Shown here piece after piece: positions 5,152-9,462 of a stretch of DNA of 64,000 nucleotides. Below the pieces are notes generated by a model that saw only the letters and a list, made by a program, of their open reading frames with translations, searched no databases and was not told the DNA's origin. Origin of the DNA: Rhodococcus sp. W8901 (GTDB lineage: Bacteria > Actinomycetota > Actinomycetes > Mycobacteriales > Mycobacteriaceae); the NCBI RefSeq assembly GCF_013348805.1, contig NZ_CP054690.1:4216001-4280000 (forward strand), written 5' to 3'. Both the position numbers and the translations under genes were made by a program. How positions within the stretch are numbered: the first letter of the stretch is position 1; each line of letters starts with the position of its first letter.

Positions 5152-6543
5152 TCAGACGGGATCGACGAGGATCTCGTCCTCGACTACGGGCTCCGGGCGC
5201 GCCCAGCGGCGGTAGGCCAAGGCGAGCAGCACCAGCCACACCGCGCCGACCACGAGTGCCACTCGAGAGTCGGCGTCGAAGGCCAGCACGGCGATGACGA
5301 AGACCAGGAAGCCGATCGCGATCAGCTGCCCGTACGGCCAGAACGGCACCGGGAACTTCAGTGCCGCAACCTCGTCCGCGCTCATCTGCTTCCGCGAGCG
5401 GTACTGGGCGAACAGGATCATCAGCCAGACGAAGACCGTCGCGAAGGTCGCGATCGACGCGATGACGAGGAAGACCCGGTCCGGCATCGTGTAGTTCAGC
5501 AAGACGCCGACCAACAGTGCGGCGACCATGATCACCACCGTCATCCACGGGACCCCGTTGCGGGAGACCCGGCTCATCACCTTCGGCGCGTACCCACGCT
5601 GCGCCATTCCGTACATCATGCGGCCGGCGCCGAAAATGTCGCTGTTGATCGCGGACAGCGCAGCGGTGATCACCACGACGTTCAGCACCGTCGCGGCCGG
5701 ACCGATGCCGAGTCCCTGGAAGATCTGCACGAAGGGGCTGCCCTCGGACCCGATGTTCTGCCACGGGGTGATCGCCATGATCACGGCGAGTGTGAGCACG
5801 TAGAAGACGATGATCCGGATGGGCACGGTGTTGATCGCTCGCGGAATGGTCTTCTTCGGGTCCTCGGCCTCGCCCGCTGTGATGCCGATGATCTCGGTGC
5901 CACCGAATGCGAACATCACGATCGCGAAGCAGCCGAGGAACCCGCCGAGCCCAGTGGCGAAGAACCCGCCCTCGTTCCACAGGTTCGACACTCCCTCGCT
6001 GGTGTCGTGAAGACCGAACCCGAAGATCAGAACCGCGATACCTCCGGCGATCATCGCCACGATCGCCACGATCTTGACGATCGTGAACCAGAACTCCACC
6101 TCACCGAAGACCTTGACGCTGAGCAGGTTGATCGCGCCGATGAAGAAGATGACCGACAACACCCAGATCCACCGCGGGACATCCGGAAACCAGAAACCCA
6201 TGTAGACGCCGAAGGCCGTCACGTCGGCCAGACAGACCACGATCATCTCGAACGTGTAGGTCCAGCCGGTCGCGAATCCCGCGAGCGGACCCAGATACTT
6301 GCTCGCGTACTCGCCGAACGAACCCGAGACCGGGTTGCTCACCGCCATCTCGCCGAGCGCACGGAGCACGATGTAGATCACCGCGCCGCCGATCAAGTAG
6401 GCCAGCAAGACGGACGGCCCCGCCTGGCTTATCGCCTCCGCGGAGCCGTAGAAGAGGCCGGTGCCTATGGCGGAACCGAGGGCGATGAAGCGGATATGGC
6501 GCGCTGTGAGACCTCGGGTCAGCGCCGGGGCAGTGTCTGTCAC
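5152..6543 (-). CDS. APC-family amino-acid permease, probably for histidine
   Basis: Twelve-helix amino acid-proton symporter, 463 residues from GTG (GGGAG 7 bases before). The N-terminus has [22 protein letters not shown], the substrate-site signature of the amino-acid transporter family, followed by [17 protein letters not shown]. This is the AAT/GABA-permease group (ProY, HutT, GabP-like). Histidine is inferred from the hutH gene 52 bases downstream on the same strand; proline or GABA cannot be excluded from the sequence. A perfect palindrome 112 bases upstream may be the operator for the pair. Confidence 0.85.
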
Positions 6544-6758: not shown

Positions 6759-6905
6759 GGTCATGAGTGCCAGCGTCAAGCCCCGGCTCGCTGGTCGGCA
6801 ACCCTCCAACCGCGGTGGGGTGCCCCGGGTGATGACCAGGTTTCCCGGCGAGAGTCGGGTGACAAGCGCGGGTCCGCTGGGACGGACCCACTGACCGGGC
6901 CATGC
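6759..6905 (+). ncRNA. SAM-IV riboswitch upstream of metY
   Basis: S-adenosylmethionine-binding leader of the actinobacterial SAM-IV class. P1 pairs GGTCAT (6759-6764) with ATGACC (6832-6837). Inside lie GCCAGCG / CGCTGGT (P2), the core GGCAACCCTCCAACCGCGG and GGGGTGCCCCGGG. A 3' hairpin GGGTCCG / CGGACCC near 6870-6889 fits the extra SAM-IV helices. It sits about 110 bases before metY, whose enzyme makes homocysteine for SAM synthesis, so high SAM should shut metY-metX down. The 3' boundary is approximate. Confidence 0.88.
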
Positions 6906-6922
6906 CCCACCGGAGGTTTCTC

Positions 6923-6943
6923 ATGTGTTGTTGTCGCAGATAG
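6923..6943 (+). CDS. Six-codon cysteine-rich leader peptide (Met-Cys-Cys-Cys-Arg-Arg)
   Basis: ATG, three TGT codons, CGC, AGA, TAG: a peptide MCCCRR lying between the SAM-IV riboswitch and metY. CGGAGG (6911-6916) sits 6 bases before the ATG, a near-ideal ribosome site. An in-frame ATG at 6902 would give the 13-residue MPHRRFLMCCCRR, but it has no good ribosome site. Three consecutive Cys codons make it a likely sensor of cysteinyl-tRNA supply; poly-Cys upstream ORFs acting as attenuators are known in mycobacteria. The link to metY expression is inference. The 69 bases to metY can form GC-rich hairpins, for example around 6953-6977. Confidence 0.6.
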   Translation: MCCCRR

Positions 6944-7012
6944 CCCAGTCATTCCGGCGCGCGGACGCCGCAGCGCCGACTCATCACCTCCCCAACCTGG
7001 AGTAGACGACTC

Positions 7013-8326
7013 ATGACCGACATCACGGACGCCGCGACCGATCCGACGGCCGACTGGAGCTTCGAGACCAAGCAGATCCACGCTGGCCAGTTGCCGGACG
7101 GCACCACCAACGCGCGCGCGTTGCCGATCTACCAGACCACCTCGTACACGTTCAACAGCACCGACCACGCCGCCGCGCTGTTCGGGCTGGCAGAGCCGGG
7201 CAACATCTACACCCGCATCATGAACCCGACGCAGGACGCCGTCGAGCAGCGGATCGCCGCGCTCGAGGGTGGCGTGGCAGCGCTGCTGCTCGCGTCCGGT
7301 CAGGCCGCCGAGACGTTCGCGATCCTCAACCTCGCCGAGGCCGGCGACCACATCGTGTCGAGCCCGCGCCTGTACGGCGGCACGTACAACCTGTTCCACT
7401 ACTCGCTGCGCAAGCTGGGCATCGAGGTCTCGTTCGTCGAGGATCCCGACGACATCGAGCAGTGGCGCGCCGCCATCCGCCCGAACACCAAGGCGTTCTA
7501 CGGTGAGTCCATCTCGAACCCGCGCAACGACGTGCTGGACATCCCCGGCATCTCGAAGGTCGCGCACGAGAACGGCATCCCGCTGATCGTCGACAACACG
7601 GTCGCGACCCCGTACCTGATCCGTCCGCTCGAGTTCGGCGCGGACATCGTCGTCCACTCGGCCACCAAGTACCTCGGCGGCCACGGCACCGCGGTCGCCG
7701 GCGTGATCGTCGACGGCGGCAACTTCGACTGGACACAGGGCCGCCACACCAACTTCACCACCGCCGACCCGAGCTACCACGGCGTCGTCTACGCGGATCT
7801 CGGCGCACCGGCATTCGCGCTCAAGGCCCGCGTGCAGCTGCTGCGCGACCTGGGTGCGGCCATCTCGCCGTTCAACGCGTTCCTCATCTCGCAGGGCATC
7901 GAGACGCTGAGCCTGCGCATGGAGCGCCACGTCGCGAACGCGAAGGCCGTCGCCGAGTACCTCGAGGCCCGCCCCGAGGTGACCTCGGTGTCGTACGCCG
8001 GTCTGCCGTCGTCGCCGTGGCACGAGCGCGGCAAGACGCTGGCCCCCCGCGGCACCGGCGCCATCGTGGCGTTCGAGCTCGCCGGTGGCGTGGACGCGGG
8101 CAAGAAGTTCGTCAACGCCCTCACCCTGCACAGCCATGTCGCCAACATCGGTGACGTGCGGTCGCTGGTGATCCACCCCGCCTCGACGACGCACTCGCAG
8201 CTGACTCCCGCAGAGCAGCTCGCCTCCGGCGTCACCCCGGGTCTCGTCCGCCTCGCCGTCGGGATCGAAGGCCTCGACGACATCCTCGCCGACCTAGATG
8301 CCGGGTTTGCGGCGGCGGCATCTTGA
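7013..8326 (+). CDS. metY: O-acetylhomoserine sulfhydrylase (MetY/MetZ type)
   Basis: PLP enzyme of the Cys/Met metabolism family that joins O-acetylhomoserine and sulfide to give homocysteine. 437 residues, typical of the long MetY form. The N-terminus has [10 protein letters not shown], the substrate-phosphate region YTRIMNPT (residues 66-72), and [10 protein letters not shown] with the PLP lysine at 219. GGAG lies upstream of the ATG. The stop overlaps the metX start by 4 bases (TTGA), so the genes are translationally coupled. It is downstream of the SAM-IV riboswitch and the Cys leader ORF. The enzyme uses sulfide directly, so cysteine sensing upstream makes physiological sense. Confidence 0.95.
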
Positions 8327-9462
8327 CCGTCAGCCCCGTTCGCAACGCCCGTCCGGCCGGATTCCCTCCGCCGGACGGGCAGTTGGGCACTGTCCACATC
8401 GGCTCGATCGAACTCGAGAGCGGTGCGGTGCTGCCCGACGTCACGCTGGCCGTCCAGCGGTGGGGTGAACTGGCGCCCAACCGCGACAACGTGATCCTGG
8501 TCGAGCACGCCCTGACCGGCGATTCGCACGTGACCGGGCCGGCGGACGCCGAACACCCCTCCCCCGGCTGGTGGGACGGCATGGTCGGGCCCGGCGCGCC
8601 GATCGACACCAACGAGTGGTGCGTGCTCGCCACCAACGTGCTGGGCGGCTGCCGCGGCACCACCGGCCCGGGTTCACTCGCGGCCGACGGGTCGCCGTGG
8701 GGTTCACGGTTCCCCGCGATCTCCATCCGCGATCAGGTGACCGCCGAGATCGCGCTCGCGGACCTGCTCGGCATCGAGCGCCTGTCCTCCGTCGTCGGCG
8801 GGTCGATGGGTGGCATGCGCGCACTCGAATGGGTCGTCGGGCGCCCCGATCGGGTCGATTCGGCGCTGATCCTCGCGGTGGGTGCGCGTGCAACCGCCGA
8901 CCAGATCGGCACCCAGACCACCCAGATCGCGGCCATCGAGGCCGACCCCGACTGGCAGGGCGGCAACTATCACGGCACCGGCCGCGTCCCGGCCACCGGA
9001 CTGCGCCTCGCCCGCCGGATTGCACACCTGACGTACCGCACGGAGAACGAGCTGGACTCGCGCTTCGCGAACGACGGCCAGGGCGACGAGAACCCTTGGG
9101 ACGGCGGACGTTACGCAGTCCAGAGCTACCTCGAACACCAGGCCGACAAGCTGGTCTCCCGGTTCGACCCGAGCACGTACGTGCTGCTGACCGAGGCCAT
9201 GAACCGGCACGACGTCGGACGCGGACGCGGCGGTATCGAGGCGGCGCTCGCGTCGACCGACGTTCCGGTGATCGTCGGTGGCGTCGACTCGGATCGGCTG
9301 TACCCGCTGCGGCTGCAGAAGGAGCTCGCGGACGGCCTGCCCGGCTGCGACCGGCTGCGGGTCCTCGAGTCGAAGGACGGCCACGACGGCTTCCTCACCG
9401 AGGCCGACGCGGTGGCCGAACTGCTGAAGGAAACGATGGAGTTGGCGCGCGCGGCGCGCTGA
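8323..9462 (+). CDS. metX: Homoserine O-acetyltransferase
   Basis: Alpha/beta-hydrolase-fold acyltransferase that activates homoserine with acetyl-CoA to supply MetY. 379 residues from a TTG that overlaps the metY stop. Motifs: [10 protein letters not shown] near residue 61, the oxyanion region [12 protein letters not shown], the nucleophile in [14 protein letters not shown] (Ser161), then VDSDRLYPL and KDGHDGFL carrying the Asp and His of the triad. With metY it forms the direct-sulfhydrylation branch of methionine synthesis. Confidence 0.95.

Follow-up and report, generated by a model that had tools for sequence, protein, structure and literature searches.

A cysteine-codon upstream open reading frame between a SAM-IV riboswitch and metY-metX in Rhodococcus sp. 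W8901, conserved in related actinobacteria

The 64,000-nucleotide stretch of DNA analysed here (the window) carries a SAM-IV riboswitch aptamer ahead of the methionine genes metY and metX, with a six-codon upstream open reading frame (uORF) between aptamer and metY. The elements of the locus are as follows:

6759..6874, + strand: complete SAM-IV riboswitch aptamer (Rfam RF00634, 120 bits against a gathering threshold of 38, E 1.1e-21; positions 1-116 of 116 in the covariance model)
6867..6871, + strand: CGCGG, presumed 3' strand of pseudoknot PK-2, assigned by reading the sequence
6883..6889, + strand: CGGACCC, candidate anti-Shine-Dalgarno (anti-SD) arm of a predicted hairpin
6912..6916, + strand: GGAGG, Shine-Dalgarno (SD) sequence of the uORF in the sequence, with a 6-nt spacer to the ATG
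6923..6943, + strand: uORF MCCCRR with stop (ATG TGT TGT TGT CGC AGA TAG), from sequence and conservation
6955..6978, + strand: predicted G+C-rich hairpin GGCGC...GCGCC in the uORF-metY interval, without a U tract
6999..7014, + strand: translation start region of metY in the sequence, GGAGUAGACGACUCAU
7013..8326, + strand: metY, bifunctional O-acetylhomoserine/O-acetylserine sulfhydrylase (NCBIfam NF005872, 863.6 bits, cut-off 703)
8323..9462, + strand: metX, homoserine O-acetyltransferase (NF047917, 604.6 bits, cut-off 475)

The start of metX overlaps metY by 4 nt, and the SAM-IV aptamer is the sole Rfam match at the gathering threshold within the window. These assignments bear out a preliminary description of the locus, which had placed a SAM-IV riboswitch ahead of metY-metX and, between aptamer and metY, a six-codon ORF with a strong ribosome site and three cysteine codons; the combination of SAM-IV, cysteine-codon ORF and metY-metX is confirmed. 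The window contains the sequence ATGTGYTGYTGY, a start codon followed by three cysteine codons, a single time, where shuffles predict 0.03 occurrences, and the pattern of GGAGG, a spacer of 3-9 nt, ATG and three cysteine codons matches once in the whole 5.71-Mb genome, with no match for the reversed control pattern. The host genome holds one other SAM-IV match, which precedes a cysteine-desulfurase-like gene. An amino acid permease gene (PF00324; window positions 5152-6543, minus strand) lies divergent from the riboswitch leader.

Conservation of the uORF was assessed in 14 genomes of the genus, the window's own included. SAM-IV was present in all 14, and each metY leader carried, at the same place, an SD-led uORF with two or three cysteine codons, preceded by GGAGGT and ended by TAG. 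Codon 2 encodes cysteine in every genome (TGT in 11, TGC in 3), codon 3 in 11 (TGT in 9, TGC in 2; AGT for serine in the other 3) and codon 4 in 12 (always TGT; TCT for serine in the other 2). Codon 5, in turn, is R, H, L or P and codon 6 is R, T, E, P or H, in the pairs RR, RT, HE, LE, RE, PP and HH. The check put forward in the preliminary description, namely whether the cysteine codons are conserved while their flanks drift, thus came out in its favor across the genus, with codons 2-4 mostly cysteine and codons 5-6 varied.

The wider comparison covered 184 SAM-IV loci: 46 from among the matches listed in searches of the host's own genome, its genus and 301 host-family genomes, 80 chosen from further places among the score-ranked matches listed for the host family, and 58 named metY loci with SAM-IV at threshold (58 of 80; 15 + 17 + 14 + 12). 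Family and class searches used stricter filters and score-ranked lists, and the loci are a selection among the matches listed in which a species may be represented twice. The remaining 22 named metY loci, which include some from Rhodococcus and Nocardia, showed no SAM-IV at threshold, and some of these 22 have little upstream DNA. By tblastn, the gene downstream of the 184 aptamers was metY in 113 cases, a cysteine-desulfurase-like gene in 68 and neither in three. To be picked, a uORF had to match the SD over 4 nt or more and lie at most 110 nt from the aptamer; leaders whose gap did not exceed 85 nt were classed as uORF-less.

This automatic rule assigns an SD-led uORF to 59 of the 113 metY leaders; cysteine is present in 57 of those uORFs. 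A strict count, made after four exclusions and one re-assignment, finds cysteine in 55 of 55 SD-led uORFs, representing 37 distinct peptides. The exclusions were L081, where a TTG-started ORF was judged spurious and metY comes next, and the three loci L179, L184 and L200, where the intervening ORF looks rhodanese-like by eye; for L061, the count uses MCSCR, which starts with TTG, in place of a cysteine-less automatic pick. A further 14 long leaders lack an SD match; 11 of them have an ATG-led cysteine ORF, picked by hand and with its cysteines mostly near the stop, and the other three (L036, L155 and L169) have no cysteine ORF. A cysteine uORF candidate is thus present in 66 of the 113 metY leaders, 55 of which show an SD match while the other 11 are the hand-picked ones; another 41 have no uORF, metY being the first ORF after the aptamer, and six fall in neither class (three excluded leaders and the three long ones without a cysteine ORF). 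The arrangement recurs in Rhodococcus (MCCCTDTPR...), Antrihabitans (MCCCSG), Aldersonia (MSCCRR), Nocardia (MCCCPSIRPS), Mycobacterium and Mycolicibacterium (MRSCR and MCMCP) and other actinobacterial lineages, such as an uncultured actinobacterium with MCCLPCCC. The rhodanese-like ORF, seen by eye in L171 as well as in L179, L184 and L200, sits either in the interval from SAM-IV to metY or immediately 3' of SAM-IV.

Before exclusions, the 41 distinct uORF peptides contain 102 cysteines among 447 residues, with 39 peptides holding cysteine and 33 holding CC or CxC. Dinucleotide-shuffled leaders gave mean values of 34.8 cysteines in 956 residues, 21.0 cysteine-containing peptides (maximum 31) and 1.8 peptides with CC or CxC (maximum 6), and the two other frames gave 24 cysteines in 1044 residues and 28 in 1332; since the loci are related, these counts are not independent trials. 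SAM-IV leaders of desulfurase-like genes had an SD-led uORF in four of 68 cases and a cysteine-containing one in a single case, in leaders that are shorter (median gap 53 nt) and hence offer less room for a uORF. Within the 184-locus set, the cysteine ORF associates with metY rather than with SAM-IV as such. Judged by its SD sequence, the shuffles and this metY specificity, it is a short ORF that can be translated, is enriched in regulatory codons and lies ahead of a pathway operon. One could argue that the ORF is untranslated, or translated without regulatory effect, and that its cysteine codons are an accident of common descent, given that its translation is a prediction and that many loci are related. 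We regard this as very improbable, because cysteine is present in 55 of 55 uORFs over many genera, against 1 of 68 control leaders, and neighboring codons drift within the genus.

Placement makes a fair argument that the riboswitch acts on the uORF. The median distance from the aptamer to the first start codon is 48 nt (13-79) for the uORF and 44 nt (16-79) for a directly following metY, and among the 55 uORF leaders the SD match is longer for the uORF than for metY in 43, equal in seven and shorter in five, both comparisons being partly shaped by the picking rules given above. The argument from predicted folding is weak. In 51 of 59 loci, pairing of the post-aptamer stretch is stronger to the start region of the uORF than to that of metY (mean -12.7 versus -8.3 kcal/mol; -10.3 for shuffled uORF starts), but pairing of the arm with the SD beats shuffles at 5% in only 10 of the 59; in uORF-less leaders, post-aptamer pairing to the metY start passes the same level in 11 of 39. 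The 3' end of SAM-IV is described as forming PK-2 (PMC6890682). Blocking the presumed PK-2 strand lowered the mean predicted SD accessibility only from 0.39 to 0.33 in 49 uORF leaders, with a decrease in 35 of the 49, against 27 of 49 when 8 nt were blocked instead; in a set of 39 uORF-less leaders the mean fell from 0.38 to 0.34, and in 10 others it barely moved (0.42 to 0.41). Folding energy of the whole leader is ordinary (z -0.63), and an RNAalifold consensus of 15 leaders, in which one of 25 pairs had changes on both sides, was not used as support.

Some uORFs after SAM-IV lack cysteine. Outside the host family, 43 further SAM-IV loci were examined, and metY was the best match in 12 of them, one of which is doubtful (26% identity). 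Among the other 11, six have a very short SD-matched uORF just downstream of the aptamer (five with cysteine and one, MNHHRMRR, without), L240 carries a 29-residue SD-matched ORF without cysteine, and four show none. All eight desulfurase leaders examined in family f19 (L212, L214, L216, L218, L221, L222, L230 and L233) have a GTG-started, cysteine-less MSKRMR, MNQRMR or MSQRMR located 40-58 nt after SAM-IV. We call this family Streptomyces-like, partly on the basis of SAM-IV before a desulfurase, an arrangement described for S. lividans (PMC8079986). In all 15 hits of a uORF pattern outside the host family, at most 75 nt from the aptamer, an Arg-Met pair is encoded by exactly CGA-ATG although any CGN was allowed (L080, L096, L101, L119, L208, L210, L234, L237, L249 and six Streptomyces-like leaders). 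This invariance suggests that the uORF under SAM-IV may be older or more widespread than its cysteine content.

At least one other pairing of SAM-IV with a cysteine leader, of a different kind, seems to have arisen independently. In L246, a locus of another family (genome G344), SAM-IV is followed by a peptide matching NF042934 (..RRHVDLVRVASCTCR; 41.3 bits, cut-off 27) at roughly 16-135 nt and then by a luciferase-like monooxygenase gene. In the host genome, an NF042934 cysteine leader over the cut-off (L256; G000:C1:735572-735619) is positioned just 3' of the desulfurase-like gene of the second SAM-IV and before the next gene. A further NF042934 match over the cut-off in the same genome lies at 1124307, and a match below the cut-off (...RRHVDLKRVCSCCCLPCGV) precedes an ORF that looks sulfite reductase-like by eye. 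Desulfurase-like proteins under SAM-IV (L002 and 67 others) often start with MTAV..., and many have cysteine within their first 25 codons; perhaps such early cysteines allow codon-level control inside the desulfurase-like gene itself.

How a ribosome on the uORF would affect metY was approached through the downstream leader. A general helix between the cysteine codons and the downstream leader was rejected, as the mean z across 67 loci was -0.14 with only four loci below -2. In L044, the cysteine-codon stretch TGTTGTCGCTG is complementary without a mismatch to CAGCGACAACA, a little upstream of the metY start, which would give a local attenuator-like helix, and L143 shows near-perfect complementarity of the same kind. 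In the window, ACGACUCAU from the metY start and AUGUGUUGU from the uORF start could form a helix that includes G.U and a mismatch; the equivalent pairing is perfect in G033 and G074 and nearly so in G139. For these three genomes, no uORF-less metY start pairs equally well with the uORF start, and across the 14 genus leaders the number of uORF-less metY starts that equal the leader's own in this pairing is 2 to 9 of 41. This pairing is confined to the window's genus and a few relatives, and we discarded it as a universal output; within the genus it is a possibility. A hairpin resembling that at 6955..6978 was seen by eye in many of 19 aligned leaders. No intrinsic terminator was found in the leader, and a search for sigma-70-type promoters found none, with a model that is uninformative for the host's group. 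The uORF-metY interval contains more C than G in 58 of 62 loci, but the same is true of metY itself (54 of 62) and of desulfurase leaders (50 of 54), which leaves a Rho site as a possibility.

Part of this evidence could be read as a plain relay from riboswitch to metY without any cysteine sensing. The uORF would then matter by being translated, through protection from Rho or by freeing the metY start, and its cysteine codons would be kept for RNA reasons, as UGU repeats that leave the start accessible or base-pair at the beginning of metY. Consistent with such a role, TGT is strongly preferred in the 41 distinct uORFs (83 TGT to 19 TGC), while downstream metY stretches hold one TGT to seven TGC, a small sample; the complement of the uORF start at metY starts of the genus, the C-rich interval and the eight Streptomyces-like desulfurase leaders whose uORF has no cysteine fit as well. 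However, cysteine is also kept in lineages that lack the pairing, at varied codon positions and in differing sequence contexts (MRSCR, MSRCR, MCRDC, MCCLPCCC and MFSHRLCCSRR), and TGC is used too. We hence consider a relay blind to cysteine unlikely.

Together, these findings point to a two-input leader: it seems to us rather likely that SAM gates translation of the uORF, that the supply of cysteinyl-tRNA sets the dwell time of the ribosome on it, and that both jointly set metY-metX expression. The position and conservation of the uORF are observed, whereas we infer its translation, its responses to SAM and cysteine and the sign of the cysteine effect. The aptamer would govern the ribosome-binding site of the six-codon uORF and not metY directly. 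The CGGACCC arm has two predicted alternative partners, GGGUCCG (6870-6876) and the SD region of the uORF, and the candidate anti-anti-SD GGGUCC (6870-6875) overlaps the CGCGG of PK-2. With SAM bound, PK-2 would tie up the anti-anti-SD, leaving the anti-SD arm to cover GGAGG and the uORF untranslated. At low SAM, ribosomes would enter the uORF, and their dwell on the cysteine codons, as the conservation of these codons suggests, would report cysteinyl-tRNA supply. A held ribosome could stop the uORF start from pairing with the metY start, shield the leader from Rho, or both. Expression of metY-metX would be highest when SAM and cysteine are both short and would fall when either is plentiful, an output step and sign modeled on the polycysteine uORFs of mycobacteria.

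MetY makes homocysteine. As its family, going by the bifunctional name, may also make cysteine from O-acetylserine, both SAM and cysteine would be end products. The cysteine effect could also have the opposite sign: ample cysteine would speed uORF translation and thereby help metY through reinitiation or Rho protection, stalling would lower its expression, and metY would be on when sulfur is abundant and SAM low. Given MetY's use of sulfide, this would make chemical sense, and sequence does not reveal which sign applies. Still, we think the opposite sign quite unlikely, given that the polycysteine uORFs of mycobacteria are reportedly cysteine-responsive attenuators, as Canestrari is said to have described in 2020, and that a median of 73 nt separates the uORF stop from metY, a long way for reinitiation. 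With the pairing of SAM-IV and a cysteine ORF conserved in many relatives, metY is probably under the control of both methionine-derived SAM and cysteine supply, and the comparative evidence supports the dual-control reading of the preliminary description as a probable one.

Parts of this arrangement have precedents (counted for the mechanism: PMC11260477, PMC12810186, PMC4633059 and PMC9094748). SAM-IV ahead of an O-acetylhomoserine sulfhydrylase gene has already been reported in M. avium (PMC3774663), similarly a complete, high-scoring aptamer before a methionine gene; the word uORF is absent from the text of that paper, and in our case the first ORF under the switch is the cysteine-codon uORF and not the enzyme gene. 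Passages mentioning SAM-IV in PMC8079986, PMC3890552 and PMC2965389 describe no accompanying cysteine uORF. As the preliminary description had stated, poly-cysteine uORFs are known in mycobacteria, with conserved cysteine-rich uORFs and ribosome occupancy at one of them in M. smegmatis (PMC4633059), and cysteine leader peptides precede cys operons and cbs (PMC1262725). These actinobacterial elements share with ours a short ORF with a cysteine run before a sulfur-metabolism operon. Unlike leaderless polycysteine uORFs, the present uORF is SD-led within a riboswitch leader and has an N-terminal cysteine run; its start codon, located 3' of the aptamer and with its own SD, would not form the 5' end of the mRNA, although the sequence would also accommodate an internal transcription start giving a leaderless uORF. 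The NCBIfam leader-peptide profiles (NF042934 / Ms5788A / Ms4527A) assigned no family up to E 10 to three longer relatives of the uORF, which were used for this comparison since MCCCRR is too short to scan.

Riboswitches acting together with small uORFs are described in M. tuberculosis for B12 switches (PMC11260477) and for the Mbox, whose platform covers the uORF start (PMC12810186). The relevant passages do not present these uORFs as readers of amino acid supply, and the word cysteine is absent from PMC12810186, whereas here the codons suggest a second signal. Sensing of SAM and of tRNA charge on the same genes is described for SAM-I with a T-box(Met) before metX and metY (PMC9481103); that tandem uses a Met T-box RNA where our locus has a short cysteine-codon ORF, and the 64-kb window contains no T-box RNA at the Rfam gathering threshold. 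In the LEU element (PMC1262725), too, a stretch of regulatory codons is able to pair with the start region of the gene downstream, but these are leucine codons before leuA with no riboswitch, and its authors read mutation data as speaking against codon sensing. The suggestion that a tandem of SAM-IV and a cysteine leader may be undescribed is in line with our search, in which none appeared among the matches listed, judged by title or abstract start; this is not proof of absence, as most subscription papers lay outside the search. The locus thus appears to represent a riboswitch whose first regulated ORF is itself a cysteine-codon leader. Riboswitch-controlled uORFs and polycysteine attenuators are known separately, so that their combination would be the new aspect, and a relay from riboswitch to leader peptide was not found described as a class in the literature searched.

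More generally, we tentatively propose, at somewhat less than even confidence, that actinobacterial SAM-IV often acts on a tiny ORF at the position of the enzyme start, which would serve as a swappable second sensor (cysteine codons before metY, Lys/Gln-Arg-Met before the Streptomyces-like desulfurase) for a joint decision on SAM and aminoacyl-tRNA. Leaders in which SAM-IV directly precedes metY, those with a cysteine uORF and those with a cysteine-less uORF form a natural control set, and the question can be tested by codon swaps. If the proposed mechanism is true, an aptamer and a ribosome in series would let a single leader weigh SAM and cysteine, both of them sulfur end products, and the gene first assigned to many SAM-IV riboswitches would not be the first ORF that they act on.
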